A stretch of 55,186 nt of DNA from a virus, in IMG/VR virus record IMGVR_UViG_3300030104_000268, positions 1-55,186 of that record. One strand, 5' to 3'. This document shows positions 1 through 55,186 of this stretch, one piece after another. The notes beneath the pieces are model-generated. The model was not told where the DNA came from and did not search any database. It saw nothing but the letters and a program-made list of their open reading frames with translations. The position numbers and the translations under genes were made by a program. Numbering within the stretch: the first letter of the stretch is position 1; each line of letters starts with the position of its first letter.

Positions 1-77
1 CTACTTGTGCTAGTTCAGGCATATTATTTTCTCCTTATGTTGGGGCCAGCTATTACACTGGGTAGCCTTATTATTTT
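1..77. repeat. Left copy of contig-end repeat, outer segment
   Basis: These 77 bases are identical to 54816-54892. They cover the stop of the 1246-residue virion protein, the short gap and the ribosome-binding site and start of the scaffold gene (the scaffold's start codon lies at 54837 in the other copy). The match implies that base 1 equals base 54816 and that the genome closes as a 54,815-bp circle or circularly permuted molecule. It is too short and too imperfect over its wider span to be an ordinary T7-type direct terminal repeat. Confidence 0.9.
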
Positions 78-3000
78 CTTTGCATTAAACCGCCTTTGTT
101 ACGTCCTCCAGAAGGCCCTGTATATCCACCAAAATTACTGGTATCTTCTATACCACCTGTTTTTTCTTTTTGTTTTTCTCTGGCTCCTTCTTGAGCAGCT
201 TTTACTTCTGGACTTTGTGATCTTAATGTCTCTGTTTTTCTTCTCTCATCTTGCATTTGTTGTAGCATTTTTTGTGATTCAGATGGTCCATCATCACCAC
301 TATCTTTAGTAGTAGTGGCTTTAGTAGCTGTGGCATCACTATTCATCCAAGCATTTAATTCTTTCCTAGTTGTTGTGCCATCATCATCAATATCAGCAAC
401 ACCTCTAGCACCCCTAGTTCTAAGTGTCCCTGATGCTAAGGTAGATACTAATTTAGGGTCAAGATTATTATCTTCTGCATATTTATCAACTCTACCCTTT
501 AATTTATTATAAGTATCATCATCTATCTTACCAGCAGCTTTTGCTAACTCAATAGACGAAAATGCTTTAGAAACATTACCTAGTTTGTCTATACCCTCTA
601 CAAGACTTATAACTGGAGTTTTTAAGCCAAATATACCTGAAGATTTTGGTTCTGTTAATATACTATCTACATAACCAGACACGTTATTAAAGTCTACTTC
701 TTTATACCAAGGATCTTTTGGTTCAGGTGTAAATCCACTACCACTATCACTACCACCACCTCCACTTGTAGGTTGTTGTATTGGTTTTGGTGCTGTTGTT
801 TTATAACCTTGAGATATTAATTGATCATATCTTTCTTGATCTTGTGGTAATATTAAATTTACAACTTCACCATTAGGTCCATAAAGTGTTGTTGGTTTTT
901 GGGGTTGTGGTGTTATAGACCCTGGACCTGTAGCTTCCCAACTAAATCCTGTACCTATATTAGGCATAAAAGGACTACCACCTAAAGACATACCCTGTGG
1001 TTGTTGATACATAGACTTTTGTTGTTGATAGGGATCTGCCATTTGAACCACACCACCGTTAGCCATCCTTTGTAACTCTTGCATTTCTTCACCACTAAGA
1101 GGTCCACCCATAGCCATTTGTTTTGGTGCTGGTGGCATTGGAGCCTGAGTCATAGGTGGTTGTCCAGCCTTGGGTCCACCTACAGGTACAGGTTCTCCAC
1201 CTATACGTCCATCACGTTCCATCTGACCAAGACCACCCTTAGCTTTGTTACGTAAATCCTCAAAGTGTTTTACTCCATAGTATTGTACTACATCAGCAGG
1301 AACTACATACTCACCCTCTGATAACTGTGCAGGTATATCATCTCTTACTTCTTTAGCCATAGAACCAGGTGGTATTTGATTACCTGACACAGGGTCTACC
1401 TTCATACCATCATCCTTCAGACCACCCTGTTGCATGAAAGCCATTTGCATTTGTCTGTTCATTGTTACCCCACCCTCGTTAAATATTCTTAGTTTACCAT
1501 CTTTTGTTCTTACTGCCATTTCTTTTAAATCAGAAATAGTAGCAGTTTTAACATTTTTTGCTAAAACAAGAGGACCAACTTGTATCATCTCATCAGCATC
1601 AAATACAATTTTTCCTGTTTTCTTACCATAGAATTGACTTCCTCTGTAGGGATTCATTCCTACTTGTGTCCATTCTTTTGAACCAGACTCTATAATAGAT
1701 GCAGCCATTTCCTGTAGTTCGTAAGGATCTTCTGGGACGTACTCACCAACAGCACGAGCTATTGTAGATTTACCAAAAGGTTTTTCTTCACCAGTTTTTT
1801 TAACTAGTATTTTACCTCTAGCAATATCTAAAGCTTCTTTTGATTGAGATCCAAACCTAACATTCTTTAGTCTTATTGCTTGTCCATACCCTAAAACAGA
1901 CCCTTTTAAATTTATTTTTTCTTTAGTGCCACCATCGTGTATAGACACAACCCACTTATCATACTTGTTATAGGCAGGAATATCTAAACGTGTTCCTAAT
2001 AATTGACCTTTTTTTAAATCAAAACCTTTTACACCAAGTATACCATAGTCTTTTGCTTTTTTACCCATTGACCCTGTTACATCAGTTACAGTAGGCATCA
2101 TGTTTCGTACTTCATCAGCAGTATATTCTTTTGGTGGAGGTATAGCATCACCAACACGTTTACGAGCTTCCTTAGATGTTATATCACCTCTGTATAAAGC
2201 TTCTGCTGCTGCTTCAGAATCTGTAGGATTTTCTTGTCTTTTACCTTTTCCACCCTCTTTTTTTTGCCAAGCCTTTAATGCGTCAGGATCATCAATAAGT
2301 CTTTCTGCTTCTTTTACATCTGCAGCTCTATTAAATAATTTTGTATCTGTAGGAGTTTTTTTAAAAGGTTCATCTACAATACCAGAAGCAGTGGATTTTA
2401 ATCTAATATTACCACCCATCATACCTACAGCATTAGGATCAACTTCAACACGTTTGGCTGTATCAAGTGCTTTTCTTGAACCAGCCATAAATGCATCTGC
2501 TGCATCATCAAGTTGGGTTAGACTTCTAGCACCTGCCATACCAGCAAAAGCCTCTGGTATAGAATATAAATCCCTAGCCATACGTTTTTCTAATTGTTCT
2601 GTGGGCATAGCTTGTGATACAGCACCCACAGCATATTTAAAAGCAGTGTCAGCTAAACTTAAACCAGAAAGGCCCATATCTTTAAGGTAGTCTATAGAGC
2701 GTTTATAGGCAGTAAATAAAGCAGGGTCTTCGGGATCTACATCAATCTTACCTGCATCCATAAACCTTTCTTTTGTTTCTTCCCAAGAGTCAGAAGCAAA
2801 GTCTCTAGCAGTAAAATTTTTAGGTTTATTAGTAGTATAGTCATTATCTGCAGAGGGTAACATTAAGGATTGCATCTGTTTTGTTAAACCACCTTTTTGC
2901 ATACCGTAACCTGGTGTGCCTTTTTTCTCATAAAAAAATAAAGGGTTTTCGTCTTTTACGCCTTCCCAAGGTTTACTGTCTCTGGTTATTCTTCTTACTG

Positions 3001-3811
3001 AAAGAACATTTTCTAAATCAAAATTTTTAATAGAGACTGCACCTTCTGTAAACTCACCCTCTGATGAGCGTTCAATAGTAGCACCCATACCACCTTGATT
3101 ACCACCAAGCATTTTAATTTCATCCTTACGACTAGGAAAACCACCTGCCCTGTCACCAGGATAAAAACCTACATGATCTCCTATCCCATGACCAGGTGTT
3201 CCAGGTGGATCAAAATCAAGAACAATTAAATCACCCTCTTTAATATCACTAAGTTCTATTGCTTCTCCATAGTTTACATATTCTCTAGCTCTTACTCTTG
3301 CGTAAGATTCTTCAGAACCTAATTTAACACCTGGATTTAATCTATCAGCACCAATTTTAGTTAGTGTAGCATCTACAAACGCAGCACACCAAGCTATATC
3401 TCTAGGATCATAATCTTCTCTACCTACTGCATTTTTAAAAAAACCTATTATAGCATCTCTATGCTCTTTAATATTTTCATCTAAATTTAACCCTGGTATT
3501 TGTATACCAGTGTTCCCAATCATTTTACCTCTAGTAAGCATATTAGCGTAAAGAACTGCTTGAATAGGATTTTCTGTTTGATTTACGTCCTCAATATAAT
3601 CTTCTGCTTTTTGTAAAAGAAGATCTGTTGGTGTAGCTATATCTCTACGTATTTGAGGAGACATAATTGGTTGACCATCATCAGTCTTATCCCTACCAGT
3701 AACCATAGCTGCCATTTGATCAGAAAGTTTAGCAACGGGTTTACCAATAGGAACTACATCATCAGGTTTAATCTTTGGCCTTAAACTTTCATCTACTGCT
3801 GTTTTAACCAT
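71..3811 (-). CDS. Large virion-associated protein with N-terminal NlpC/P60-like peptidase domain
   Basis: This 1246-residue protein follows portal and precedes scaffold on the joined late strand, so it is probably a structural or ejected protein. Residues about 85-250 look like a TIGR02594/NlpC-P60-type peptidoglycan hydrolase: WCAAFV with candidate nucleophile Cys142, then GDHVGFY with candidate His213 and a following GGNQ. A segment near two thirds of the length (DDIPAQLSEGEYVVPADVV) recurs in marine podovirus virion proteins. The C-terminal third is Pro/Gln/Gly-rich with repeated K/N-GG-hydrophobic motifs and an EF-hand-like loop (DIDDDGTTTRKE) just before a C-terminus that exists in two versions in this window. 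The ATG at 3811 overlaps the upstream stop by 8 bases. The peptidase assignment is from motifs; the remainder has no recognised function. Confidence 0.8.
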   Translation of the reverse strand: MVKTAVDESLRPKIKPDDVVPIGKPVAKLSDQMAAMVTGRDKTDDGQPIMSPQIRRDIATPTDLLLQKAEDYIEDVNQTENPIQAVLYANMLTRGKMIGNTGIQIPGLNLDENIKEHRDAIIGFFKNAVGREDYDPRDIAWCAAFVDATLTKIGADRLNPGVKLGSEESYARVRAREYVNYGEAIELSDIKEGDLIVLDFDPPGTPGHGIGDHVGFYPGDRAGGFPSRKDEIKMLGGNQGGMGATIERSSEGEFTEGAVSIKNFDLENVLSVRRITRDSKPWEGVKDENPLFFYEKKGTPGYGMQKGGLTKQMQSLMLPSADNDYTTNKPKNFTARDFASDSWEETKERFMDAGKIDVDPEDPALFTAYKRSIDYLKDMGLSGLSLADTAFKYAVGAVSQAMPTEQLEKRMARDLYSIPEAFAGMAGARSLTQLDDAADAFMAGSRKALDTAKRVEVDPNAVGMMGGNIRLKSTASGIVDEPFKKTPTDTKLFNRAADVKEAERLIDDPDALKAWQKKEGGKGKRQENPTDSEAAAEALYRGDITSKEARKRVGDAIPPPKEYTADEVRNMMPTVTDVTGSMGKKAKDYGILGVKGFDLKKGQLLGTRLDIPAYNKYDKWVVSIHDGGTKEKINLKGSVLGYGQAIRLKNVRFGSQSKEALDIARGKILVKKTGEEKPFGKSTIARAVGEYVPEDPYELQEMAASIIESGSKEWTQVGMNPYRGSQFYGKKTGKIVFDADEMIQVGPLVLAKNVKTATISDLKEMAVRTKDGKLRIFNEGGVTMNRQMQMAFMQQGGLKDDGMKVDPVSGNQIPPGSMAKEVRDDIPAQLSEGEYVVPADVVQYYGVKHFEDLRNKAKGGLGQMERDGRIGGEPVPVGGPKAGQPPMTQAPMPPAPKQMAMGGPLSGEEMQELQRMANGGVVQMADPYQQQKSMYQQPQGMSLGGSPFMPNIGTGFSWEATGPGSITPQPQKPTTLYGPNGEVVNLILPQDQERYDQLISQGYKTTAPKPIQQPTSGGGGSDSGSGFTPEPKDPWYKEVDFNNVSGYVDSILTEPKSSGIFGLKTPVISLVEGIDKLGNVSKAFSSIELAKAAGKIDDDTYNKLKGRVDKYAEDNNLDPKLVSTLASGTLRTRGARGVADIDDDGTTTRKELNAWMNSDATATKATTTKDSGDDGPSESQKMLQQMQDERRKTETLRSQSPEVKAAQEGAREKQKEKTGGIEDTSNFGGYTGPSGGRNKGGLMQRK
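308..364. repeat. Left copy of contig-end repeat, inner segment
   Basis: This 57-base stretch matches 55129-55185. It encodes, on the minus strand, the segment NAWMNSDATATKATTT just after an EF-hand-like loop in the large virion protein. Between this and the outer repeat (78-307 versus 54893-55128) the two copies share little sequence although both encode hydrophilic Lys/Glu/Gln-rich tails ending in GGLMQRK. That pattern is expected of two alleles, not of a simple terminal redundancy. Confidence 0.85.
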
Positions 3812-4010
3812 TTACTTTGTCTCTTAATCTTACTAAAGAACGTAAGGCACGTATCTCACCCTGTAGTCTAAACATCTCATCTGGTTCTCTAGACTGTTCC
3901 AGTGCAATCTGTGACATTATTATACGTTCACCTATCTCTTCTAGAAACGGATTGTATAACTCTGGATTATTTACAAAAGGTTTAAGTGTATTATTCACGA
4001 CTAGTTTCAT
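3804..4010 (-). CDS. Small hypothetical protein between portal and large virion protein
   Basis: A 68-residue protein whose ATG at 4010 shares one base with the portal stop (TGATG), so it is probably translationally coupled to portal. The C-terminal half is charged and helical (EQSREPDEMFRLQGEIRALR), suggesting a short coiled coil. It also overlaps the next gene by 8 bases. A head-assembly or portal-associated role is possible from position only. A GTG three bases upstream is a less likely start. Confidence 0.7.
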   Translation of the reverse strand: MKLVVNNTLKPFVNNPELYNPFLEEIGERIIMSQIALEQSREPDEMFRLQGEIRALRSLVRLRDKVNG

Positions 4011-6112
4011 CACTGTATTGGTTGCTCATTGCCTGAGAAGCCCTGTTCTCCTGGCTGAGGGGCTGTTCCTGTTCCTATAGTACCTCCCCCACTACCTTGC
4101 GTATCCTGCACTCCTGCGCCAGCAGGTGGCTTCTGTGGAGATGGTGGCTGGTTTACACCCTGTTGGGGTGATGGTGGATCAGGGTTTGCTTCCTTAAACT
4201 TCTTGAGTATCTCTGCCTGTATTGCAGCCTCAGTCATATTATTACCCACTTTGTCAGGATCAAGGTCCATAGACTTAGCAATCTCACGAACTACATAATC
4301 CATTCTAAAAAATGGTGCTAGTGTTGGATTCTGTCCTATTTGCAAGAATTGCATCAGGCGTTGGCTACGTACTTCATTAGCCATTAGACTTTCTGTACCA
4401 CGGGCCTTAATCTCTAAGTCACCCTTAATCTCTTGGTCAAAGTCAAACTGCATGTTAAAATTAAAAAATGCTTTACCCAGTGGTGCTAGTAGGTAGTCAT
4501 CTATATTTTTTACAACATTGCGGATAGAACCATTAGCAGCAGACATAAGCATAGAGATACCAGAAGCAGTACGCCCCACACCACTGACGCCAGTTTGACC
4601 ATGTGCAAAACTTGGAAATCCCGTACTTTCATCTGCTAACACCCTTGCCTTATCAAACATCTGCATGTTTTCACTACTTACATTAGGAAACTTTGTACCA
4701 AAAATGGCTTGACCTGGAGCACCACCCTGTCTCCTAAATATCTTACCAGGATATACGGATAAGTCTTGTCCAGGGACTAGGTTAGTTTCATCTACCTCAA
4801 TTAACAAGTTGCCTGACAGTGCAGCATTATCCACTGCCATACGCATAAACCCATTCATCAAAGTCTGTGTGTCATCCATGTTTTCAGCAATACCCACACC
4901 AAAGATACTGTAAGGATTCATCTCATAAGGGGCGGCAAAATAAGGAATGTAAGCAGGAGTAAAAGGATTCATTACCAAACGTAGCACCTGACCATTACAT
5001 GTCCAGACATTTACACTTAGTTGCTCTGTATCCCGTAACTCTTTTGGTATTTCTATGTCTTGTTCTTCCAGTATCTCAGTATCAACAAAACCCCAAAACT
5101 CCAATACCTCAAACCGTTCTGATTTAGATTCCTGTGCATCATCCTCCATAGCTTGTTCCCACCACTCTTTTGTGTAGGACTCGCCTAAAGACAAGGCATT
5201 ATCTATTGTATTTTTTCTAAAGTATGGTCTGTTTTTTAATGCACGTAGTTGAGAACGAGACATTTTGTGGCGTTCCACAATATACTCTGCCTCTTCCATT
5301 GTAGCTGCATCAGGGTCAGGGTAGAAGTTCCAAATAGAAACGCTAGTAGTTTGTGGTATTGTTTTAAATACTGGAGAGTAATTACCCTCCTCATCCCAGT
5401 TAGGATACTCTTTATCCACGGCAAACGGACCCTTCATAATCCCAGTGCCAAACAAGGCTGACTCAAATGCTGCAGCCCTCATGTGTTTCTTTGCATGGGA
5501 CTCTTCTAACTGATCATGTATCTTTTTCTCCATCTTCTTTGCTGCAACTTCTGCAGGATAGAACTGTGGAGATGTTGGTGTTTTAGCATAGCCAGGTTCT
5601 AACTTATCCATTACAGGTTCTAAGTTATCTCTTAGAGCACCAAGACGTTCCTGAAACTCTGGGTATGTTTCGCCAGGAAGTAACTCAGGCATACCCTCTT
5701 TTGCTTTTGTTTGTTCTGGATTAGTTTCAAAGTTTACAACTTCCTCCACACCTTCAGGAAGTCTGGTTGGATCAATGCTAATAGGAAACTTATTACCACC
5801 AAAAAGTACATCCGCTATCTGACCATAAGCAGCAAGAACTTTTGTTTTAGTTATCTTAACAAATACCTGAGACTTTTCTGTAGAAGTAAACTGTACATCT
5901 GGTCCGTATATACCACGATAGTTTCTATAGGCTTGTATCCAACGGTGTTCCTCTGTCTCTCTTGCATTTTCTGCTTTTTCAAATCTTTCTTTTACAAAAC
6001 CTACGATTTGACCAGCTTTAGGGTCAGAATATTCTTCTTCTTTAACATCCTCTATAGAAGAAGTTTCCTCCATATCCATAAGCATATCTTCTGTGTCAAA
6101 TTCTTCTGCCAT
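4010..6112 (-). CDS. Portal protein
   Basis: A 700-residue protein, of the size of P22-like portals, encoded directly after the large terminase. The N-terminal third carries a segment typical of marine podovirus portals (KSQVFVKITKTKVLAAYGQI followed by DVLFGGNKFPI). It forms the dodecameric DNA channel at the capsid vertex and docks terminase and tail. I chose the ATG at 6112: it overlaps the upstream zinc-ribbon stop as TAATG and has a GGAAGG ribosome-binding site. A start 15 bases upstream is possible but lacks this. The acidic N-terminus and the Pro/Gly/Gln-rich C-terminal 70 residues are probably disordered. Confidence 0.9.
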   Translation of the reverse strand: MAEEFDTEDMLMDMEETSSIEDVKEEEYSDPKAGQIVGFVKERFEKAENARETEEHRWIQAYRNYRGIYGPDVQFTSTEKSQVFVKITKTKVLAAYGQIADVLFGGNKFPISIDPTRLPEGVEEVVNFETNPEQTKAKEGMPELLPGETYPEFQERLGALRDNLEPVMDKLEPGYAKTPTSPQFYPAEVAAKKMEKKIHDQLEESHAKKHMRAAAFESALFGTGIMKGPFAVDKEYPNWDEEGNYSPVFKTIPQTTSVSIWNFYPDPDAATMEEAEYIVERHKMSRSQLRALKNRPYFRKNTIDNALSLGESYTKEWWEQAMEDDAQESKSERFEVLEFWGFVDTEILEEQDIEIPKELRDTEQLSVNVWTCNGQVLRLVMNPFTPAYIPYFAAPYEMNPYSIFGVGIAENMDDTQTLMNGFMRMAVDNAALSGNLLIEVDETNLVPGQDLSVYPGKIFRRQGGAPGQAIFGTKFPNVSSENMQMFDKARVLADESTGFPSFAHGQTGVSGVGRTASGISMLMSAANGSIRNVVKNIDDYLLAPLGKAFFNFNMQFDFDQEIKGDLEIKARGTESLMANEVRSQRLMQFLQIGQNPTLAPFFRMDYVVREIAKSMDLDPDKVGNNMTEAAIQAEILKKFKEANPDPPSPQQGVNQPPSPQKPPAGAGVQDTQGSGGGTIGTGTAPQPGEQGFSGNEQPIQ

Positions 6113-6246
6113 TAGTTTTCCTTCCAAGGCTCATTATTAAAGTCATTTTCTTGTTGACATCTAGGACAAAACTGATATTTTTCCGTGTTATAACTTGTTT
6201 CACATTTAAAACAAGTTTTTTGTATTTTAGTAACCAAATCTTGCAT
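6112..6246 (-). CDS. Zinc-ribbon microprotein between terminase and portal
   Basis: A 44-residue reading frame on the minus strand with two CxxC pairs (CFKC and CPRC, 12 residues apart), a classic zinc-ribbon pattern. Its start overlaps the end of the large terminase gene by 20 bases and its stop overlaps the portal ATG (TAATG), which argues for translation in the late operon. The ribosome-binding site is weak. Function is unknown; a nucleic-acid or protein-docking role is inferred only from the metal-binding motif. Confidence 0.65.
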   Translation of the reverse strand: MQDLVTKIQKTCFKCETSYNTEKYQFCPRCQQENDFNNEPWKEN

Positions 6247-7774
6247 CTGACACTTGAAACCCTGACTTAGTTACAGCAGGATCAAAATCAAATATGTTAC
6301 TTCTTGGTCTAGTCATTACACCATAACGTAAAGCATCATATAAGTGATCCTCTGCATTTGTATTTACATCCTCTGGATTATTTTTATCAAGAGGTAAGGA
6401 AGGTAACTGAGAAATGGTATTAATACAATTATTAAAAAATACCAGTCTTGGTTCCTCAGTAAACTCATCAATCTGTAAACGTCTGTGTATTTCGTTTTTA
6501 CCTGCAACCCTTGACCCCCTTGATCTATCTGATGGCCTCCACCTACAACCTTTCATAATCATTTGTTCAGCAAGGCTAGGGCCAGTATCACCACGATTAT
6601 GCCACAGAGAAGAGTCCAAAACTCCATAACGCATCTTCTCCCCTTCTTCTACCTCTAGTATCATATCAGCTAGATCAGTAGCTATAACTTTAGATACATA
6701 CATTTCCCTATAAACTACAAGTTGTTCTGAGGGAGATACTGCAAACCAGAGAACTCCTGTGTGTGATCCATAACCATAGTCACAGGCTCTAAACTTAACC
6801 CAACTATTAGGTATGTCATATGGATCAACTACATGTTCTTTCCTATTAAACTCAGGAAATGCTGCTCCTTCTTGTATATCCCAGTCACCTTCTAGTAACT
6901 GTCTTCTTTGATGTTCTGGTAAAGATAAAAGGTTTGCCTCATACATACCATCGTCTGCCAGATACGGATTATCAAAGAGGGTGGCTGGTATAAATTTTCT
7001 TTTAAACAGAGGCTCACCCTCTTTAGTATGACCTTTAGGCCATGTAATTATATTTCCTGTGTCTATATCTGTTGCCCAAAAAGTTTCATTATGTGGAGCA
7101 GGATCAATAAAAGTTTTCTTAACCCACTGATGTCCTGGCCCACCTGGGTTAGTAGTTGCCCTCATGTATAAAGGTAATCCACTATCCTTTGATGACCTTA
7201 GCCTTGATCTCATATAGTTCCAAGGATAGGGTGTAGGCCACTGTGTAAGTTCATCAAACCCAATCCAGTTAAATGCCTGACCTTGGTAACGCATAACATC
7301 ATCATCACGGTCTAGGTAGGACATCCAGAGAGTTGCTCCACTTGGTGCTACCCAAGTCTTGTCTCTCTCCATAAACTTAATCCCAGGAACTGCTTTGGGG
7401 TACAGGTCTTTTGATATGGAAATAAGTTCTCTTAGTTCTTCTGTGCTTCTACGCACAAGCAACATACTAGCCTGTGAGTTACCAAAGTATCTAATAGGAT
7501 CAACAACTAGACTATAACTTTTACCACCACCTGCTGATCCTCCATAGAGCACCTCTTGTTCTGTTGCTGCAAGAAAAGAAGTCTGTGGCCCAGGATTAGG
7601 TTGAAAAAGTATTTTCTGTTTTGGTTTCTCAACCTCCTCAATAGATACCTTTGTCACTGGAGCCTTGGATTCTTTTAATGGTTTCTTCAATTTTCTGCGC
7701 TTTGGAACTCGCCTCTTTGTACCGTTGGGCATAGTAGCGTTGGTTTGCAAGATCTCTCTTAAATCTCGACTCAC
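6227..7774 (-). CDS. terL: Terminase large subunit (packaging ATPase/nuclease)
   Basis: A 515-residue motor protein that translocates and cuts genome DNA at the portal. Visible motifs are Walker A GGSAGGGKS (residues 78-86), Walker B ending in FNWIGFDELTQ, and the C-terminal RNase H-like nuclease acidic residues in FRACDYGYG, YGVLDSSLW and EDHLYDALRYG. The N-terminal 55 residues are very basic and low-complexity. The listed start is GTG at 7774 with a GGG-containing ribosome-binding site; this overlaps the upstream gene by 137 bases. ATG at 7732 is an alternative but has no clear Shine-Dalgarno. Next to small terminase and portal, as expected. Confidence 0.93.
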   Translation of the reverse strand: MSRDLREILQTNATMPNGTKRRVPKRRKLKKPLKESKAPVTKVSIEEVEKPKQKILFQPNPGPQTSFLAATEQEVLYGGSAGGGKSYSLVVDPIRYFGNSQASMLLVRRSTEELRELISISKDLYPKAVPGIKFMERDKTWVAPSGATLWMSYLDRDDDVMRYQGQAFNWIGFDELTQWPTPYPWNYMRSRLRSSKDSGLPLYMRATTNPGGPGHQWVKKTFIDPAPHNETFWATDIDTGNIITWPKGHTKEGEPLFKRKFIPATLFDNPYLADDGMYEANLLSLPEHQRRQLLEGDWDIQEGAAFPEFNRKEHVVDPYDIPNSWVKFRACDYGYGSHTGVLWFAVSPSEQLVVYREMYVSKVIATDLADMILEVEEGEKMRYGVLDSSLWHNRGDTGPSLAEQMIMKGCRWRPSDRSRGSRVAGKNEIHRRLQIDEFTEEPRLVFFNNCINTISQLPSLPLDKNNPEDVNTNAEDHLYDALRYGVMTRPRSNIFDFDPAVTKSGFQVSDARFGY

Positions 7775-23630: not shown

Positions 23631-25221
23631 CACACCACACTTAGCCTGTCCATTTGAGGACTGTGGTTCTAGTGATGCTTTCAACTGGAATGATGAGGGT
23701 TATGGCTACTGTCATTCCTGTGGTAACTCATACCCAAGTAAGGAACCCACATTTGATTGGGCAAAAGAAGAATACCCAGTAAAAGAGAGGAGAAATATTA
23801 TGGATGTACCCATCAAGAGTATGACCTTTGAAGGTATACGGGGCATCAAACCAGAGGTCTGTCAGGTGTATCAGATACAGCTACAGTTGGGTGAAGGTGG
23901 TAAACCTATCAGGTATGCCTTCAAGTACCCACACACCACCAAGTACAGATCCTATGATGACAAAAAGAAAACCTGGCAGAAGGATGTGGGGGCTGGTATG
24001 GCCTACCTCTTTGGCCCTGAGTTTAATGCTGGTACTAGTGAACGTCTATACCTCACTGAGGGTGAATTTGATGCGGCTAGTCTGTATGAAATACTAGGTG
24101 AAAAGTTTCCTGTAAAGTCTCTACCCAGTGCATCAATTAGTAATAAGTTTCTACAACAGAACTTAAACTACTTGAAGTCTTTCAAGATGGTGGTGTATGC
24201 AGGAGAACTTGATGCAGCAGGTAGGGCAGCAGCAGACAAACTGTATGCTGTAATACCAGACAGGTTCTTCTATGCCCCAATGTCAAAGCACAAGGATGCT
24301 AATGACTTCCTTACTGCTGGTGATGGAAAGGACTTGATGTGGGCTGCTATGAAGCCACAGAAGTATTCACCTGACAACTTCTTTATTAGTGATGAGGATG
24401 TGGATACGGCTATACGAACAGAAAACCCATACTCATATACACCCACAGGACACAGTGGTATTGATGAGAAGATAAGAGGACTGGTCAAGGGTGGTCTGAC
24501 ATTCATCAAAGCACCAAGGGGTACTGGTAAGACTGAGGTGATACGTTACTTTGAGAATGGGCTGCTACGCACACCAGATACACGCATAGCCCTGCTACAC
24601 ATGGAAGAAATGAAGTCCACCACCTACAGGGCAATGGCTACCTACCACTTAGGCTGCAATGTGCGTACCAATGATGATGCGGAAGCCAACGGTGTTAGCA
24701 CTGATGATGTAGTTAAGGCTGCACAGATTGCTGCTGATACTGAAAACAACAGAACAATAATCTTTGAGATGAGGAGCCATGATGACCCGCTTAAACTTCT
24801 TGACCACACTAGGACTGCTGCTACTGTGTTTGGTGCTGACTATATATTCGTAGATCATGCCCAACGCCTTGCATACTTATCCAGCAGTGGGGTTGATGGC
24901 GCTACCAGTACACTAACTACACTATCCTCACGCATGGCACAACTGGCTAAAGAACTGAATATTGGTGTGATATTTATATCACAGGTTAATGATGATGGTA
25001 GGACTAAGTATGCATCTTCTCTTGAAGAAGAGGCAATAATATGCTTAAAGATAGACAGAGATGTTGAGTCGGAGGATGAGATAGTGCAGAACACTACCAA
25101 CTTTATAGTGGATAAGAACAGACCCTTTGCCAAGTTAGGTATGGCAGGGTCACTATACTACAATCCACAGACAACTATCCTGACTGAGGACGCACCATAT
25201 AACGTGAAGGATGCTGCATGA
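23617..25221 (+). CDS. T7-type bifunctional primase-helicase
   Basis: A 534-residue protein combining a zinc-binding domain (Cys11, Cys16, Cys32, Cys35), a TOPRIM primase domain (LTEGEFDA around Glu148; VVYAGELDAAG around residue 197; KHKDANDFLTAG) and a RecA-like hexameric helicase (Walker A APRGTGKTEV, residues 299-308; Walker B YIFVDHAQRL; FISQVND later). It would unwind DNA and prime lagging-strand synthesis with the polymerase encoded next, whose start overlaps its stop by 4 bases. The usual DxD of TOPRIM reads ELD and the first zinc pair is CX4C, mild departures from T7 gp4. Confidence 0.92.
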   Translation: MAEGDTPHLACPFEDCGSSDAFNWNDEGYGYCHSCGNSYPSKEPTFDWAKEEYPVKERRNIMDVPIKSMTFEGIRGIKPEVCQVYQIQLQLGEGGKPIRYAFKYPHTTKYRSYDDKKKTWQKDVGAGMAYLFGPEFNAGTSERLYLTEGEFDAASLYEILGEKFPVKSLPSASISNKFLQQNLNYLKSFKMVVYAGELDAAGRAAADKLYAVIPDRFFYAPMSKHKDANDFLTAGDGKDLMWAAMKPQKYSPDNFFISDEDVDTAIRTENPYSYTPTGHSGIDEKIRGLVKGGLTFIKAPRGTGKTEVIRYFENGLLRTPDTRIALLHMEEMKSTTYRAMATYHLGCNVRTNDDAEANGVSTDDVVKAAQIAADTENNRTIIFEMRSHDDPLKLLDHTRTAATVFGADYIFVDHAQRLAYLSSSGVDGATSTLTTLSSRMAQLAKELNIGVIFISQVNDDGRTKYASSLEEEAIICLKIDRDVESEDEIVQNTTNFIVDKNRPFAKLGMAGSLYYNPQTTILTEDAPYNVKDAA

Positions 25222-43170: not shown

Positions 43171-43443
43171 TTAGCCTGTAAAACTATCAGCAGCAGTTAT
43201 AGCTGCATTGATTGCTGTAAAGTCCTTGCTACCCCAATCTGAGTATGTATCCTTCTGGTGCTTGAGGTATCCTACACTACGACTTACACGAGCCTTCTTT
43301 TCGTCATGTGTCATGTCGTATGCAAAGTCTGCTGATGTAGCAGAGTTACCTTTGTTATGTGTTGCAATTACAGAATTAACTGTATCTGCCCCATTAAGAC
43401 AAGCCTTATATGCCTGTTCTATTACTTCTGTTTCTCTAGCCAT
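43171..43443 (-). CDS. Hypothetical tail-region protein (90 aa)
   Basis: A 90-residue helical protein (EVIEQAYKACLNGADTVNSV, then YLKHQKDTYSDWGSKDFTAI). No recognised domain. Overlaps the oxygenase-like gene by 8 bases. A role in tail or fibre assembly is inferred from place only. Confidence 0.65.
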   Translation of the reverse strand: MARETEVIEQAYKACLNGADTVNSVIATHNKGNSATSADFAYDMTHDEKKARVSRSVGYLKHQKDTYSDWGSKDFTAINAAITAADSFTG

Positions 43444-44080
43444 TGTTCATTTCTCCTATATTAATGTTACCAGATATTGATATTCTTTCACCATCATCAT
43501 TATAAAAGGGAAAGACCTGATGAAGTAAGCATGAAGGAAACATTACCATATATCCTTCTGCTTGTTTCTCCATATTATATGCAAAGGTTGACACCCTGCC
43601 TAACGTATTTGTGTAACTAAATGCAAAGTTACTTATGTGATTGTCTGCATTTGACTCTGCACAGATAGGTAGCTTGCGTTGTTCTTCATAGGACGTAGGT
43701 ATCTGCATCCATATTACAAAGCTGTAAACACCTGCATGATCATGTGGTGGATTAAACTCGTTCTGCTTTTGGAAGTTTACCCATAGGCTTTCTAAGTTAA
43801 ACCCTTCATCTTCTTTCATGCCTAAACGATAGGGTGTTCCATAATCTTCTAAGTGCTTCCTCATATAGGCTGGTATTACCTCACCTACAAAGTCTTCTAT
43901 TAAATCTGACTTACTATCTAGTCTAATAGAAGAACTGATGTTACCTGCTAGTTCAGGCTTCATATCTTCTGGTTTTTCTCTTGCTTCGTTTATTAATGTC
44001 CACAAGTCATCAACTATTTCTTCTGATAGTTTTCCTTCCACTACCCCAATGTTAGGGAAGTTTCTTGCTAGTAGTTCCAT
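43436..44080 (-). CDS. 2OG-Fe(II) oxygenase-like protein
   Basis: A 214-residue protein of the TIGR02466/2OG-Fe(II) type: iron ligands in NPPHDHAGVYSFVIW and in the C-terminal HQVFPFYNDDGERISISGN (His, then the Arg that binds 2-oxoglutarate). Placed directly after the fibre gene, it might hydroxylate the fibre or a host surface or DNA substrate; this is common in marine phage tail regions, substrate unknown. Confidence 0.78.
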   Translation of the reverse strand: MELLARNFPNIGVVEGKLSEEIVDDLWTLINEAREKPEDMKPELAGNISSSIRLDSKSDLIEDFVGEVIPAYMRKHLEDYGTPYRLGMKEDEGFNLESLWVNFQKQNEFNPPHDHAGVYSFVIWMQIPTSYEEQRKLPICAESNADNHISNFAFSYTNTLGRVSTFAYNMEKQAEGYMVMFPSCLLHQVFPFYNDDGERISISGNINIGEMNNG

Positions 44081-44083
44081 TGT

Positions 44084-47000
44084 TTATCCTTCTAGTGTTG
44101 CTATTCGTGCTTCTAGGGCATCGTTCTTTGCTGATAGTTCTTGTAGTGCTTTGACTAGGATTGGTACAAACTTGCTGTACTGCATACCGTACTGTTTACC
44201 GTCATCAGATAAAGATGTTACTAAATTAGTTTTATCTGCAATCTTATAGCCAGCAGCTTTTTCTAACACCTCAACTTCTTGAGCTTTAAATCCTACGTCT
44301 AACCAATCTTCTTTATGTGTTCCATCAGGTGTTTGGGCATCAAGATCATAATCGTCAGCAGTTCTGTCACCATATCTAGCTCGTTTATCCCACTTATAAG
44401 TTACAGGATTAAGTGCTTTTACAAAATCAAGTCCAACATCTAATGCAGTAAAATCTGTCTTATCTCGTTGGTCAGAAGCTACCGTCCAATCAGCTTGAAT
44501 ATGACAAGCACCAATAGTTTCATTTCCTAAAGCTATTGTATTGTTACCTGTGGTAATATTGCCACCAGGACTACCTGTTCGCCCTGCATTATGACCTAAC
44601 ACCAAATTGTTGATACCACTTGAAATAGCAGCCCCTGCTGCTGTACCTAAGCCTGTGTTATCAGTGCCTGTGCAAACTTCTAGTGCAGAAACCCCAACTG
44701 CTACGTTACCGTCACCACAATTACCACTCAATGCCTGATAACCCACTGCTACATTTTCTTGACCATCATCAGTACCATCACCTGCTTCAGCACCTATAAA
44801 GGTGTTAAAAAATCCTGTTATATTAGTTGTACCTGCTTCATAACCAACTGCGGTGTTGTACATATTATTTGCAGTTGCACCAGCAGAATTTTGTGATCTT
44901 AAAGAACGGTAGCCAATAGCTACACAACGACTACCTACATCATCAGTCTCTAATGCTTCACGGCCTATAGCCACGTTATAAGAACCAACCGTTAATGCAC
45001 GGGCAGCTTGATAACCCATAATTGCGTTAGCCTCGCCACTAGTACAAGAAAACAAGCTTTCAACACCTACAGTAGTATTAGCTCCACCCGTCATAGCTCC
45101 ACCACCAGATGAAGCACCGACAAAAGTATTGGCTGTTCCTGTAGTAAGACCTGAACCTGCGTTATATCCTACTGCGGTATTATTAGTATTTGTAGCTGTA
45201 GTGAGATTTTGTGTAAATAGAGCTTGGTATCCTACAGCCGTTGATTGAGAACCAAGTGTGTCACTACTCAAAGCAGTATAGCCTACAGTAGTGTTTTTAT
45301 CTGCATCAGTAAGAGCATCGCCAGCTTCACTACCTATTAAGGTATTTAATCGACCTGTTGTGACTGCTACACCTGCTTGAAAACCTACAGCAGTATTGTA
45401 GGTCTCCGTAGCTGTAGTAAAATTTTGATTACTCAATGCAGTATAACCAATTGCAGTAGACCTGCTGCCTAATGTATCAGCATCTAATGCAAGAGCACCT
45501 ACTGCGGTATTAAGAGCACCTGTTGTAATAGCATTACCTGCATCAAAACCTACTGCTGTATTATAAACACTAGTTGCAGTGCTATTGCTTTGATTTGCAA
45601 GACTAGAATTACCTATAGCTACACTAAAAGAACCTGCTACTTCAGAAGTTAATGCGTTCATCCCTACTGCTGTATTATGACCGCCAGTAGTTATAGCATC
45701 TCCAGAACTACCTCCTACAAGGGTATTTAATGTACCTGTAGTGACTGCATTACCTGCACCACTTCCAACAGCTACATTAAACATATTTGTAGCTGTAGTA
45801 GGATTTTGTGTTGCTAAAGTATCATTACCAATAGCTGTAGAATAACTGCCTAGTTGATTTGCAGTTAATGCCCTTGTACCAACCGCAGTATTAAAGTCTG
45901 CATCTGTTATTGCGTCACCTGCTAGTCCACCTATAATAGTGTTGTCTACACCTGTTGTGACTGATAGCCCTGCATTATGACCTATGGCTACGTTGTAATT
46001 ATCTGTGGCTGTTGTAAAATTTTGATTAAGTAAAGCACCATGCCCAATAGCAACTGCTCTGCTACCTTTTGTGTCAGAGCTTAATGCAGCAACCCCTAAA
46101 ACTTGATTAAACGATCCAATAGTAAGTGCATCACCTGCAAGTCCACCAATAAGGTTGTTAGACTCGCCTGTTGTAACTGATAATCCTGCATCTGTGCCTA
46201 CGGCAGTATTGTACATATCCGTAGCTGTTGTTGGATTTTGAACTAGCAACGCCTGATTGCCAATAGCTACTGACCTGTTTCCAAGAACATTAGCACTTAA
46301 TGTCTGATAACCTACTGCTGTATTTAAGTCTGCATCAGTCATTGCGTCACCAGCTAATGCACCTACAAGTGTGTTGCGTATGCCTGTTGTAACTGCTGCT
46401 CCTGTTTGATATCCAACAGCAACATTATAACCATCCGTTGCTGTAGCATAGTTTTGGGCTGATAGTGCATCTGCACCCACTGCTGTTGACTTACTTCCTA
46501 CATCATCACTAGTTAGTGCAGCATGACCTATAGCTGTATTATCACTTCCTGTAGTTAAAGCATCGCCAGTAAATGCACCTATAAGATTATTTCTTAAACC
46601 TGTTGAAACTACATTACCAGCAGAAAAACCAACAGCTACATTATACGTATCTGTAGCTGTAGTTGGATTTTGTTCGTTTAAGGCAGTATCACCAATCGCA
46701 ACAGCCCTACTACCAAGAACATTTGAACTTAATGCACTGTGTCCTATTGCCACATTAAAGTCTGCATCTGTTATTGCGTCCCCTGCTAAAGCACCGACAA
46801 GAATGTTGCGTATACCTGTTGTGATATCATTACCTGCATCATGTCCTACTGCTACGTTGAAAGCATCTGTAGCTGTAGTGAAGTTTTGAGTAGCTAATGC
46901 TTGATTCCCAACAGCCGTTGTTTTACTGCCTAAAGTATCACCAGTTAAAGCTCCTCTTCCTATCGCTGTATTAGCACCTCCTGTTGTAAGAGCATCACCT

Positions 47001-48688
47001 GCTCTACCTCCAACAAGTACATTATCTACACCTGTAGTCAAAGATAATCCTGCAAGGTACCCAATTGCTACATTTTCAGCGTCTGCACCAGCATTAAGAG
47101 TTTTTAACGCTTGATAACCCATTGCGGTATTTCTGCTATTTGCATCTTCCGTTTTAAGTGCCTCAAATCCTACAGCTACATTAAAATCACCAGTAGTAAT
47201 TGCAGTACCAGCTTCATCACCTATAAGCACATTATAGTTACCGCCAGATAAAATGCTGTTACCTGCATTACCACCTAGCTTAACGTTTGATGTACCTAGT
47301 GTTGTAGTAGAGATAGAGTCAGATGCCGTTAGTATTATATTAGCCTCACCAGCTATGGTCATCGTTCCATCAGTATTTTGATGTATAAAAGTTGCAGCAT
47401 CACCAAATGTTAATTTGTTAGTGCTATTTAGAGTTAATCCTGTTCCATCAGTATGTGTAAGGGTAGTGTCATCATCGTCACCAAAAGAAAGTATTGCACC
47501 ATCATGCTGTAGTTCTAAATCTTGAGTAAGTGTAACATCACCATCAGCACCTATAGCAATAGCATCAGGATCACTGGCAGAACCAATAGTACCAGCATCT
47601 TTAATAATAAAGTCATCTGCAATAGTAAGCAAACCTGCAGAGCTTAGTGTCATTTTAGCAGTGGCACTAGCAGCAGCAGTTTCAGATGCACCAGTAGTAA
47701 ATACTAATTTAGTAGAGTTAACACTAGAGGTAAACTCTGCCTCTGCTATAGCATGGATACCTGCAGCTACAGTAGCAGCATCTGTACCACTATCATCTCC
47801 TGCAGCAAACTCAATAGAACCAATAACTTCATTTGCAGTTATTTCATTTTCCTCAGATTTAAGTTGTACTACTATTGGTTTATTATCACCTGTATTGGTG
47901 TTGGTAACTGTCAAACCTGTATCTGCTACATGAGTAACAGTTATTTCATTGTCAACACCAAAACCTAGCACAGCAGCATCACTGTCTAGTTTTAAGTCAT
48001 TGCTAACTAAGACTGCAGTAGAAGCGTTAATGTCAACTGTAGCCTCGCCATCTATACGTAGTACACCATCAGATGATTGCTGTACAAATGACGCAGCGTC
48101 ACCAAAGGTCAGCTTGTTTGTACTATTTAATGTAAGACCTGTGCCATCTGTGTGTGTAATTGTAGTGTCGTTGTCTGCGCCAAAACCTAGTACGGCAGAG
48201 TCACTGTCTAATTTTAAGTCATTACTTACTAGCACTGCAGTAGATGCATTTATATCAACCGTAGGTGCTGTTATTTCTAGTTCTGTATCAGCATCTATAT
48301 CTAGCTGACCATCTGTACTTGAGTTTATAAATATTGCAGTGTCACGAAACTGTACTTTTTTATCCGTAGCAACAAGCATGTCCCTACCAAAACCATCAAT
48401 GTAAGCTACACCATCCAGATATAAATCTTTAAACTCTAAGGCATCTGTACCCAAGTCTATTGCATTATTTGATTTAGGTGAAACAATTGTAGCACTAATG
48501 GTAATATCCTGTGCAGGACCAACAACAGATACTGGCCCACCCTCAGCAGATGTACCATCATGTGTGTGACCACTTGTAGAAAATGCAGTTACAATGGCAT
48601 CAAACTCTCCATCAAAGTCTGCAGCATTAATAACATTACCGTCAGCAATATTATTGTCCGTATCGTTTCTTGTATAACCTGTTCCCAT
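44084..48688 (-). CDS. Tail fibre with YadA-like repeats and S74 chaperone domain
   Basis: A 1534-residue fibre. The N-terminus (about 1-110) attaches to the tail. A segment (VDINASTAVLVSNDLKLDSD, then AVLGFG) is repeated twice in residues 140-250. From about 480 to 1390 the chain is a series of NTAVG/STAIG beta-roll repeats like trimeric autotransporter heads, organised as about nine 72-residue units. The C-terminus holds the intramolecular chaperone of endosialidase type (peptidase S74): ASDQRDKTDF is the cleavage-site Ser, then VGFKAQEVEVLEKAAG. Expect trimerisation and self-cleavage before SDQR. Confidence 0.88.
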   Translation of the reverse strand: MGTGYTRNDTDNNIADGNVINAADFDGEFDAIVTAFSTSGHTHDGTSAEGGPVSVVGPAQDITISATIVSPKSNNAIDLGTDALEFKDLYLDGVAYIDGFGRDMLVATDKKVQFRDTAIFINSSTDGQLDIDADTELEITAPTVDINASTAVLVSNDLKLDSDSAVLGFGADNDTTITHTDGTGLTLNSTNKLTFGDAASFVQQSSDGVLRIDGEATVDINASTAVLVSNDLKLDSDAAVLGFGVDNEITVTHVADTGLTVTNTNTGDNKPIVVQLKSEENEITANEVIGSIEFAAGDDSGTDAATVAAGIHAIAEAEFTSSVNSTKLVFTTGASETAAASATAKMTLSSAGLLTIADDFIIKDAGTIGSASDPDAIAIGADGDVTLTQDLELQHDGAILSFGDDDDTTLTHTDGTGLTLNSTNKLTFGDAATFIHQNTDGTMTIAGEANIILTASDSISTTTLGTSNVKLGGNAGNSILSGGNYNVLIGDEAGTAITTGDFNVAVGFEALKTEDANSRNTAMGYQALKTLNAGADAENVAIGYLAGLSLTTGVDNVLVGGRAGDALTTGGANTAIGRGALTGDTLGSKTTAVGNQALATQNFTTATDAFNVAVGHDAGNDITTGIRNILVGALAGDAITDADFNVAIGHSALSSNVLGSRAVAIGDTALNEQNPTTATDTYNVAVGFSAGNVVSTGLRNNLIGAFTGDALTTGSDNTAIGHAALTSDDVGSKSTAVGADALSAQNYATATDGYNVAVGYQTGAAVTTGIRNTLVGALAGDAMTDADLNTAVGYQTLSANVLGNRSVAIGNQALLVQNPTTATDMYNTAVGTDAGLSVTTGESNNLIGGLAGDALTIGSFNQVLGVAALSSDTKGSRAVAIGHGALLNQNFTTATDNYNVAIGHNAGLSVTTGVDNTIIGGLAGDAITDADFNTAVGTRALTANQLGSYSTAIGNDTLATQNPTTATNMFNVAVGSGAGNAVTTGTLNTLVGGSSGDAITTGGHNTAVGMNALTSEVAGSFSVAIGNSSLANQSNSTATSVYNTAVGFDAGNAITTGALNTAVGALALDADTLGSRSTAIGYTALSNQNFTTATETYNTAVGFQAGVAVTTGRLNTLIGSEAGDALTDADKNTTVGYTALSSDTLGSQSTAVGYQALFTQNLTTATNTNNTAVGYNAGSGLTTGTANTFVGASSGGGAMTGGANTTVGVESLFSCTSGEANAIMGYQAARALTVGSYNVAIGREALETDDVGSRCVAIGYRSLRSQNSAGATANNMYNTAVGYEAGTTNITGFFNTFIGAEAGDGTDDGQENVAVGYQALSGNCGDGNVAVGVSALEVCTGTDNTGLGTAAGAAISSGINNLVLGHNAGRTGSPGGNITTGNNTIALGNETIGACHIQADWTVASDQRDKTDFTALDVGLDFVKALNPVTYKWDKRARYGDRTADDYDLDAQTPDGTHKEDWLDVGFKAQEVEVLEKAAGYKIADKTNLVTSLSDDGKQYGMQYSKFVPILVKALQELSAKNDALEARIATLEG
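44530..47250 (-). repeat. Fibre repeat region, about nine 72-residue (216-bp) units
   Basis: Each unit reads roughly N-x-A-V-G-x-x-A-G, x-x-x-T-T-G-x-x-N-x-L-V-G, A-G-D-A-x-T, then N-T-A-V-G, L-S-x-x-x-L-G-S-R-S-x-A-I-G, and ends Q-N-x-T-T-A-T. One unit near the C-terminal side is shortened. At DNA level the units are diverged, so the array is old or diversifying. Confidence 0.8.
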
Positions 48689-52641: not shown

Positions 52642-53715
52642 TTACGCTGAGTTATATTTAGCAGTACAGATAGCTTCAGGACGAAGTATCTTCCTACCGT
52701 ATAGATGCATACCACGAACAATGTCAGCAAAGCTGTCAGGGTCACGATATGTTTCTGTCTTATTGATCTGCTCTGCAGTTGCAACAGCAGAATCATGTCC
52801 AGCAACAATTACACCAAAAGCTGTATTTTGGTTTGCAGTGCCTGATGTACCTGGTCCAGTACCTACTGCTGGTAGGTTAGAGGATACATATAGACGGAAG
52901 CCGTGAAAGTTATTAATCACGAGTCCGTTACGTAGGCCACCTGACTCACCGTAATCTCCATTCATGAAGCGACTGTCCTCATCGGAAAGTATCTCCATAA
53001 ATACAGGGTCGATTACCAGCCAACGCCCTTGGGTGTCAACTTGTTGTTGATCAAGCAAACGCTTCATACGTGCAATAATCATTGCAGGTGAAACAGTTGC
53101 AGTTGGAAGTGAAGTAGCACCTGGCATACGAGCAGTTACTGGGATTGAGTGATCACCAGCAGATGTCGTAGTAATATTACCAAATGAACTTTTAATCAGT
53201 TTCATGCTTGAAAGCAATTCGTCTGAACCTGCAGAGAGAACAGCTTTTTCACCACTTGCAGTAGTGTTAGCTGTATCTGCTTTTGCATGTAGAGCCGATT
53301 GTTTGAAGCCTGATAAATAACCTAGAACCTCTTGGTCATACTGATCAGCTAGACGGTAAGCTGCACGATCTGTTGCCAGATCCATGAAGTTTACGTGACT
53401 GTGTGCTTCCTCAATGTCATCCATTTTGAAAGCAAAGTAGTTTGATTTGTCAACTACTAGTGTGAAATCTTCATCGTCTAGGTCTTGTGCTGTGACAGTT
53501 GTGCCACGAGTATAAGCCTGGACTGAGATTTCAGGTTCTTTAATGATACGTACTGTATCACCTTGGGCAGCAATCTCTCCGAAATAGTCAGAGTTTGTAA
53601 TGTCACCCACGGTAGCAGCTTTACGGAACGCAAGCTGTACCTTTTTGGAATAGATTATGGGACTAAAATTACCATTAGGTAAATTCCCATAACCTGACGC
53701 ACTTGAAAAAGCCAT
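52642..53715 (-). CDS. Major capsid protein, P22/HK97-fold
   Basis: A 357-residue coat protein. The start MAFSSASGYGNLPNGNFSP is at 53715, with AGGAGG eight bases upstream; a longer frame to 53787 lacks this. IIYSKKVQLAFRKAATVGDI, then VRIIKEPEISVQAYTRGT and YRLADQYDQEVLGYLSGF, look like P22-type coat proteins of marine podoviruses. It would assemble with the scaffold encoded just upstream. Confidence 0.88.
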   Translation of the reverse strand: MAFSSASGYGNLPNGNFSPIIYSKKVQLAFRKAATVGDITNSDYFGEIAAQGDTVRIIKEPEISVQAYTRGTTVTAQDLDDEDFTLVVDKSNYFAFKMDDIEEAHSHVNFMDLATDRAAYRLADQYDQEVLGYLSGFKQSALHAKADTANTTASGEKAVLSAGSDELLSSMKLIKSSFGNITTTSAGDHSIPVTARMPGATSLPTATVSPAMIIARMKRLLDQQQVDTQGRWLVIDPVFMEILSDEDSRFMNGDYGESGGLRNGLVINNFHGFRLYVSSNLPAVGTGPGTSGTANQNTAFGVIVAGHDSAVATAEQINKTETYRDPDSFADIVRGMHLYGRKILRPEAICTAKYNSA

Positions 53716-53937
53716 GGTATCATCCTCCTGTAGTTTGGCTTTAGAAGCTAAACACATTGAAGAGGCTGTTATTTTTCTAGGGTGCAAGCATACTGATCAG
53801 GTTAGCTTGGGCCTATACTTGAACAGGTAGTTCTTATTAGTTTAGACTTTATTGAAATGAACATAAACAAAAGGTAGTCAAAAGAGGCTTTTGTTATATA
53901 TCCCTAGTTATACTATTAACTTTCTATTTGTCAATAG
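53716..53937 (-). promoter_or_regulatory. Coat gene leader region
   Basis: This 222-bp gap between scaffold and coat holds the promoter at 53907-53934, a loose inverted repeat AACAAAAG/CTTTTGTT (53866-53895, 14-base loop) in the leader of about 185 bases, and the coat ribosome-binding site. A long leader with a hairpin suggests message stabilisation for coat synthesis. No further gene is seen. Confidence 0.65.
53907..53934 (-). promoter_or_regulatory. Sigma70-like promoter for coat gene, leftward
   Basis: Minus strand: TTGACA (53934-53929, perfect), 16-base spacer, TATAAC (53912-53907, five of six). Start of RNA near 53900. The -10 and its flank (TATAACTAG) repeat that of the 15112-15140 promoter, suggesting a common late promoter type. 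Confidence 0.72.
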
Positions 53938-54837
53938 TTATCTTGCAGATCCTGATATATCATACACAAATTTTCCACTACGTAGTGCAGCATTTATGTT
54001 ATCAGAATTTTCTGCAAATTCTCTGTCAGACATTTTAGCAACGTCTGATTCTTTAATCATGTTGTTAGCATCAGCAAGATCTACTTCTGTCTTACTTTTT
54101 CTGGCTACAGTCTTAGCAGCGTTCTTAGTATTTTTCTTTCTGTCAGAAACAGTAAGACCATTATCCATTTTATATAAATCAATAACTCTAATTACTGAGT
54201 CAGGGTCATCTGAGTTTTCATAGAGAGCATCCTTAACCCACTTAGGTTGTTCTTCTGCCCAGTTGTGAAACTCATCTGCTGCTCTAAGATCATCAAAGTC
54301 AGAGTGAGCTTTACGTATTAAGTTTTCTGCACTGTCACGCTTTAGCTCCATACGTTCCTCATCAATCTCTTTAATACGTATGTTAGCCTTTTCAAACATT
54401 TCTTGTGCTTGTTTAGCTGCAATTTTTTCTACTATGCCAGCTACATCAGGATACTGCTTTGCCCACTCTTCTATATCCTCATCAGACTTAGGTGGGGTTA
54501 TTCCTTCTTGAGTAGCTACTTTTTCTAAGCGGCTAAACTTTTCTTCCCACTCTTTTTCTTTTTCTTGGACATGTCTCCGTAGATCACCATATCTTTTTTT
54601 AAAAGTTCTTTCTTCTGCAGATAGCGTTTTTTCTTCAACTTCTGTATTGGCCTCTTCCTCTTGGGAAGTTTCTTCTTTTGGCTCTGCATCTACTGGGTTT
54701 TCCCCTCTTGCTTCAGCTTCAAGTTTTTTAATCTCCTCTTCTTCAGCTTCCATTTTCTTTTGTTTCTTTTCGTAGTTGTAACCACGGTCAACAAATCCTG
54801 CAGTCTTCTTTGTTTCTACTTGTGCTAGTTCAGGCAT
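53938..54837 (-). CDS. Scaffold protein
   Basis: A 299-residue, Glu/Lys-rich helical protein directly upstream of the coat gene: KKMEAEEEEIKKLEAEARGE and long charged helices, the composition of P22/T7-type scaffolds; basic C-terminal part (DRKKNTKNAAKTVARKSKT) fits coat binding. Starts MPELAQVETKK at 54837 with AAGGAG eight bases before. It guides procapsid assembly and then leaves or is degraded. Confidence 0.82.
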   Translation of the reverse strand: MPELAQVETKKTAGFVDRGYNYEKKQKKMEAEEEEIKKLEAEARGENPVDAEPKEETSQEEEANTEVEEKTLSAEERTFKKRYGDLRRHVQEKEKEWEEKFSRLEKVATQEGITPPKSDEDIEEWAKQYPDVAGIVEKIAAKQAQEMFEKANIRIKEIDEERMELKRDSAENLIRKAHSDFDDLRAADEFHNWAEEQPKWVKDALYENSDDPDSVIRVIDLYKMDNGLTVSDRKKNTKNAAKTVARKSKTEVDLADANNMIKESDVAKMSDREFAENSDNINAALRSGKFVYDISGSAR

Positions 54838-54892
54838 ATTATTTTCTCCTTATGTTGGGGCCAGCTATTACACTGGGTAGCCTTATTATTTT
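54816..54892. repeat. Right copy of contig-end repeat, outer segment
   Basis: Identical to 1-77; see that entry. It contains the scaffold start and the stop region of the alternative C-terminus. Confidence 0.9.
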
Positions 54893-55186
54893 TTGTTTAC
54901 CTTTTTTCTTTGCATTAAACCACCTTTGTTAAATCCACCACCTCTTTTTATTTTTTGTTCTATACTTTCTGTTCTACCTGCAGCTTGTTGTTCTTTTTCG
55001 GCTTTTGCTGCTGCAGTATATGCTTCTTTATATTGCTTTTCTTTTTTTTCTCTTTGCATTTTCTGTGCTGCTGATTCACCACCACTTTTATCAGTACTAC
55101 TACCACCTTGTTGTTGTGGTTCTGGAGTAGTAGTAGTGGCTTTAGTAGCTGTGGCATCACTATTCATCCAAGCATTTAATTCTTTT
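54886..55186 (-). CDS. Alternative C-terminus of the large virion protein, open at the window edge
   Basis: In frame from the window end, encoding KELNAWMNSDATATKATTT as in the left copy, then a different tail (EPQQQGGSSTDKSGGESAAQ, then Lys/Glu/Gln-rich) and the shared end GGFNKGGLMQRK plus KVNKK. The left copy has KDSGDDGPSESQKMLQ and ends GGLMQRK. This is a second allele or cassette of the same C-terminus, not an independent gene. Confidence 0.8.
   Translation of the reverse strand, partial: KELNAWMNSDATATKATTTTPEPQQQGGSSTDKSGGESAAQKMQREKKEKQYKEAYTAAAKAEKEQQAAGRTESIEQKIKRGGGFNKGGLMQRKKVNKK
55129..55185. repeat. Right copy of contig-end repeat, inner segment
   Basis: Matches 308-364, with a difference at the last base of the window. 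Encodes the constant segment preceding the divergent C-terminus. Confidence 0.85.

Follow-up and report, generated by a model that had tools for sequence, protein, structure and literature searches.

The two ends of a 55,186-nt stretch of DNA (IMG/VR record IMGVR_UViG_3300030104_000268, positions 1 to 55,186; hereafter the window) carry two different 3′-ends of one gene, which encodes a large modular protein. The evidence strongly supports, at the level of sequence, that these two tails (A and B) are alleles of that gene, one per genome, which belong to two strains living side by side and were brought together during assembly. Comparison with related phages shows that the whole gene behaves as a mosaic island, which appears to be reshuffled among them between two fixed boundaries. 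Overall, the best explanation, and very probably the correct one, combines strain alleles, a mosaic gene presumably exchanged by recombination, and a protein that would be ejected from the virion. The features discussed below are collected in Table 1.

Table 1. Coordinates of features in the window (position 1 is its first base)
Feature	Position	Strand	Remarks
Constant block 1	1..77; second copy 54816..54892		Fork point; spans the large gene's last codons, the intergenic hairpin and the beginning of the next gene
Conserved intergenic hairpin	54857..54884; copy at 42-69	-	Separates large gene and putative scaffold gene; forms the island's 3′ junction
Large modular gene, allele A	71..3811	-	1246 aa; product putatively an internal/ejected virion protein; located between the genes for portal and capsid assembly
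Variable tail A	78..306	-	Last 84 nt of the ORF at 88% in L005
Constant block 2	307..364; second copy 55128..55185		Codes for KELNAWMNSDATATKATTT; the contig ends one base beyond the second copy, at a mismatch
EF-hand-like loop DIDDDGTTTRKE	359..394	-	Pattern only
Invariant core	1052..1483	-	Residues 777-920; ...GGLKDDGMK.DPVSGN..P.GS.A.EVRDDIPAQLSEGEYVVPADVV...; 47 invariant positions in 26 sequences; one copy per genome
TIGR02594 / NlpC-P60-like peptidoglycan hydrolase-like domain	3071..3469	-	Residues 115-247; weak (E 4e-5), below the curated cut-off
Conserved 69-aa gene	3804..4013	-	Overlap of its stop with the large gene's start marks the exact 5′ junction of the island
Portal protein	4010..6127	-	PF23899 SU10_portal; phrog_332/1216
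Terminase large subunit	6227..7774	-	TerL 82% identical to CRP-9
DNA polymerase	25218-27050		Best match roseophage CRP-6 (56%)
Major capsid protein	52642..53787	-	phrog_267
Putative scaffolding protein gene	53938..54837	-	By position; phrog_13678 (unknown function)
Large gene 3′-end, second strain, allele B	54886..55185	-	99 aa; open at the contig end
Variable tail B	54893..55127	-	Last 45 nt of the ORF at 100% in L004; 132 nt at 82% in L097

The first 77 bases of the window recur exactly, over 77 nt, at 54816-54892, as a preliminary description of this DNA had stated, and the two copies diverge from base 78/54893 onwards. The second repeat, which that description placed at 308-364 and 55129-55185, is also exact and starts one base earlier, at 307 and 55128 (58 nt). 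It is followed by a mismatch at the final base of the contig (365 C vs. 55186 T), which within the constant block is the third base of a codon for Arg, AGG in strain A; this fits a silent strain difference, although a single end base may also be an error. The only other repeated 25-mers in the window are two 27-nt copies within a repetitive tail protein, so the end repeats are not due to chance. Read on the minus strand, both contig ends form the 3′-end of one gene (71-3811), and the gene order is terminase, portal, 69-aa gene, large gene and, across the contig ends, putative scaffold and capsid. In phage CRP-9 and other isolates with the same gene order the large gene is internal and not at the genome ends, so the ends of the window are not phage termini. 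The window is, with near certainty, one circular-mapping marine phage genome, the ends of which overlap within the 3′-end of the large gene.

Seventy-seven is a usual k of SPAdes and we infer, with regard to the assembler, that at a variable site a de Bruijn graph with k = 77 would be expected to yield just such a 77-nt overlap with a fork at its end. Where metaSPAdes breaks an assembly, the contigs have end sequences of exactly maxK in common, and de Bruijn assemblers stop a contig wherever several paths exist (PMC10914622). Six out of 80 contigs start at most 108 nt upstream of the start of the scaffold gene, where about one is expected (p = 6e-4, an optimistic value because the 108-nt cut-off was chosen after the data had been seen). 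This cluster fits assembly breaks at the constant/variable boundary; apart from it, contig ends are not enriched over the whole large gene relative to the downstream genes.

Between the repeats lie approximately 230 nt that had been reported to differ and to encode unrelated-looking tails. This holds: the similarity of the middle parts of tails A and B is not above that of shuffled sequences (protein p ~0.10; DNA codon-shuffle p ~0.49), and the two are alike only in the 37 nt adjoining the end. Tail A ends in ...GGRNKGGLMQRK and tail B in ...GGGFNKGGLMQRKKVNKK; the terminal GGLMQRK that had been assigned to both is the end of tail A, whereas tail B carries a further KVNKK. A protein search for relatives of tail A confirmed none. 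The contigs of two relatives, L004 and L005, run unbroken from the large gene into the scaffold gene (that of L004 being 93% identical in nucleotides to the one in the window) and possess one tail each. Since the end of tail B occurs in L004 and that of tail A in L005, both types of end are found elsewhere as single tails. The core of the gene is present as a single copy in 12 of the 13 records checked, including seven isolates. The thirteenth (L018 in genome G004; 86,433 bases) contains two differing passes through the same region, about 58 kb apart and 84-90% identical in several of their best-conserved stretches, and is itself a two-strain chimeric contig, longer than one genome. In relatives with a scaffold gene and sufficient upstream sequence, one large gene directly precedes it, mostly at a distance of 41-83 nt.

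Of the two origins considered in the preliminary description, an assembly that mixed two strains is therefore strongly supported by the single tails of L004 and L005 and by the one core in each non-chimeric record. The contig very probably opened at an assembly-graph fork within the large gene, close to its 3′-end, beginning with the tail of strain A and ending, one full turn later, with that of strain B. The other origin supposes that a single genome contains the two tails as cassettes, tandem or silent, between which recombination switches in a shufflon-like or duplicative manner. It would account for their presence on one contig, and a tyrosine recombinase is indeed encoded at 20217-21104. 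In related phages, however, integrases of this type are linked with lysogeny (PMC9038755), and no serine recombinase was found in the genome. A third copy of the flank is absent from the window, and there is neither an extra segment nor a pair of flanking repeats of the kind that marks an invertible cassette or shufflon: repeats of at least 30 nt are lacking across the island in L004, L005 and CRP-9, as are repeats at the island junctions in L015. The short gap between the large ORF and the scaffold start in most relatives leaves no space for a spare tail, and we regard cassettes as very unlikely. A diversity-generating retroelement that mutates the tail would likewise produce a constant-variable-constant layout at the C-terminus. 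Such elements consist of a reverse transcriptase with a pair of template and variable repeats; the genome contains no reverse transcriptase and no template repeat, and the variants are whole unrelated blocks of differing lengths, not substitutions within an aligned repeat, so that this explanation merits practically no credence. Strain alleles remain the reading adopted here.

Counting the variants of the C-terminus in relatives, as had been proposed, gave a strongly positive result. Clustering at a 50% threshold divides the last 90 residues of 74 large proteins into 31 groups, and places the adjacent scaffold proteins in a single group; the constant-variable-constant design is accordingly real and more than an artefact. 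Five different tails are found among the six closest sequences (window A, window B, L004, L005, L006 and L007). The diversity is larger than was reported, and the N-terminal half of the protein is swapped as well. Relatives with portal-side and capsid-side DNA that is approximately 85-93% identical nevertheless differ in the N-terminal half, the tail, or both. The window and L004 are 93% identical on the portal side as far as the beginning of the large gene, nearly without nucleotide similarity for the following 1.4 kb or so, 84% identical over the DNA encoding residues 486-1159, different in the tail, and 90% identical thereafter. The N-terminal half has been replaced in both L004, where it includes an LPD23 domain above cut-off, and L005.

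The change-over points seen in these comparisons are sharp: the ATG at the 5′ side, the last codons together with the intergenic hairpin at the 3′ side, and inside them an almost invariant core. In L004, L005, L007, L008 and L011 homology stops within bases of the same ATG. The distance from the core to the stop codon is 419 +/- 29 aa, and the total length of the protein varies by +/- 212. A search for the core in cellular genomes returned just two short, weak matches in 84,980 species.

The hairpin at the 3′ junction (AAGGCUAC-YCRGC-loop-GCUGR-CCCCAACAUAAGGAG) is 100% paired across 25 distinct sequences. One pair, the sole covarying one, is altered on both sides (U-A to C-G), and the hairpin is ahead of both shuffled and slid controls in cells paired and in covariation score. 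It occurs once per locus throughout the phage group, isolates included, with UACG, UUCG and other loops, and has no credible match in Rfam. Control of scaffold translation and mRNA processing are the obvious candidates for its role.

We suggest that phages infecting the same cell would exchange these parts by ordinary homologous recombination, with the conserved flanks and the core as anchors, and that the tail may vary under few sequence constraints, host-driven selection, or both. The tail could instead be a disordered linker evolving neutrally, with free drift and recombination and a diversity of no adaptive value; this concerns the meaning of the variation and not its origin. Low contents of order-promoting residues, low pLDDT values, and a core-to-end length that stays fairly constant while the sequences are unrelated are all in keeping with such a linker. 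On the other hand, the N-terminal modules are functional domains, and distant phages have blocks in common at identities far above background, which points to transfer of intact modules. Tail B, for example, is partly common to L097 (132 nt, 82%) and L098 (63 nt, 89%), the scaffold genes of which are only 59-61% identical; and L009 and L016 have 346 nt in common at 93%, against 74%. We consider a neutral linker a real possibility, at somewhat below even chances.

Gene position and domains suggest that the large protein travels in the head and leaves it together with the DNA on ejection, akin to polyvalent or internal virion proteins. The term "virion protein" had been applied to it before and is based on the same two lines of evidence; proteomic evidence for a location in the virion was sought and none was found. 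The peptidase domain that had been mentioned corresponds to a weak TIGR02594/NlpC-P60-like match, which falls below the cut-off and lies near the N-terminus, some 900 residues from the tail. The same weak match is seen in CRP-9, while CRP-2 possesses a Hydrolase_2 domain and L004 and L022 an LPD23 domain. Other members carry modules of the NlpC/P60 or endolysin types, the hydrolase types seen including CHAP and tail lysozyme, and several isolates encode short forms (e.g., CRP-603, 438 aa). The EF-hand-like loop DIDDDGTTTRKE is present as a pattern; it recurs clearly only in L004 and is not a general feature of the family.

The tail looks disordered and basic. Order-promoting residues make up 13-14% of it vs. 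29%, the last 12 residues have a mean net charge of +5.3, and 71 of 76 sequences terminate in a GG(L/M/I) motif with a basic end. AlphaFold assigns a pLDDT below 40 to the last 58 residues, which is weak evidence for disorder as the model is poor throughout (mean pLDDT 49). Searches of the PDB, by profile and by fold gave nothing significant. In HMO-2011, CRP-13, CRP-1 and HTVC033P (L088, L089, L092 and L094), a Cys-containing C-terminal region replaces the GG(L/M)..KKK end of the large protein or of its positional counterpart. This region may be a "CFI-box" domain; it has no match in NCBIfam and only sub-threshold matches in PHROGs and Pfam. A small protein of repeated Lys-Gly-Met motifs (KGMAKGGM...), encoded at 10073-10438 on the minus strand, contains a motif that resembles the one closing the large protein, GG(L/M)..K.

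The layout of constant and variable parts had been likened to a diversifying host-contact tip, that is, a receptor-contact or tail-tip protein with a tail that varies to follow host surfaces. Host-recognition genes are often located in hypervariable islands of marine phages (PMC3909814, PMC6487183), and the large protein shows a weak tape-measure-like match to phrog_3547. Internal virion proteins are, however, also known from such islands (PMC3909814, PMC6487183), and the gene lies between the portal and scaffold genes, the tail and fibre genes being located elsewhere, downstream of the capsid gene. The tail is of low complexity and basic, and closes in a conserved GG(L/M)..KKK motif instead of a folded tip. 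Since the exchangeable N-terminal modules are peptidoglycan hydrolases or LPD23, an ejected internal virion protein fits better, and we find a host-contact tip improbable. After ejection the N-terminal module would cut peptidoglycan or act in the cell, and the disordered lysine-rich C-terminus would serve in assembly or targeting.

The terminase, portal and capsid proteins, and the gene order of the packaging and head module, are homologous to those of HMO-2011-type phages. The DNA polymerase of that group contains a partial DnaJ domain, and its two CXXCXGXG motifs are reported for all members (PMC9038755). No such motif is found in any frame of the window, and we have not filed the phage as an HMO-2011-type member. 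Its own DNA polymerase is common to the uncultured relatives G003, G004 and G006, and no counterpart was found in HMO-2011. The phage is a mosaic genome with an HMO-2011-type structural module. Given the tyrosine integrase at 20217-21104 it may be temperate, the integrase of related phages being thought to serve in lysogeny (PMC9038755). Positions 44084-48688 (minus strand) encode a protein of 1534 aa, probably a tail fibre, in which diverged repeats of 216 bases (72 aa) follow one another. The late region includes 2OG-Fe(II) oxygenase-like and ferredoxin-like (PHROG) genes at 43436-44080 and 10435-11118 (minus strand). An imperfect palindrome is located at 15236-15283, in the gap between two divergent gene blocks, and the GC skew changes sign there.

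Three known systems invite comparison. In the metaviromic or hypervariable islands of marine phages (PMC3909814; PMC6487183; PMC10504331), as here, a gene of the structural region is variable in the population while its neighbours are conserved, short-read assembly is disturbed, and internal virion proteins are involved in some cases. The locus in the window has the sequence differences between close strains and the conserved flanks of that class, to which it is assigned from comparative evidence, the class being defined also by under-recruitment of metagenome reads (with the rest near 100%). It differs from those islands in that it comprises one gene, its junctions are sharp, and the modules on the two sides of an invariant core differ. 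Polyvalent proteins, which are predicted to be packaged and injected (PMC5512222), resemble it as large modular proteins encoded beside the portal and terminase genes, with LPD and cell-wall-attacking domains (Iyer et al. 2017). Polyvalent proteins combine domains of disparate activities in one polypeptide, whereas in the protein of the window a weak hydrolase domain was the only one found; members of its family as a rule possess one recognizable domain type per protein, with LPD23 in some relatives. The HMO-2011-type phages (PMC9038755), of which CRP-9 is the nearest isolate, have in common with the window the order of the packaging and head module, the position of the large gene, the core and the hairpin, and differ from it in the type of DNA polymerase. 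The kind of locus is thus known, as a marine phage hypervariable island, and no description of this instance was found; what is of interest in it is how sharp the junctions are and that modules are swapped on either side of an invariant core.

With low confidence, and as a rather unlikely reading, the locus might be a dedicated exchange slot for ejected phage proteins. Its start junction and its 3′ junction, the latter with an RNA hairpin, would be fixed, the invariant core would serve in sorting by loading the protein into the head, and across the phage group different effector or hydrolase modules would be swapped in at the N-terminus and different tails at the C-terminus. The odd ends of the contig indicate a strain-level effect, not a switch between two cassettes, and point to a highly mosaic gene in a marine phage group. 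If its product is ejected, comparison of the swappable ends around the core would separate the part that targets the protein to the head from the part that varies with the host.
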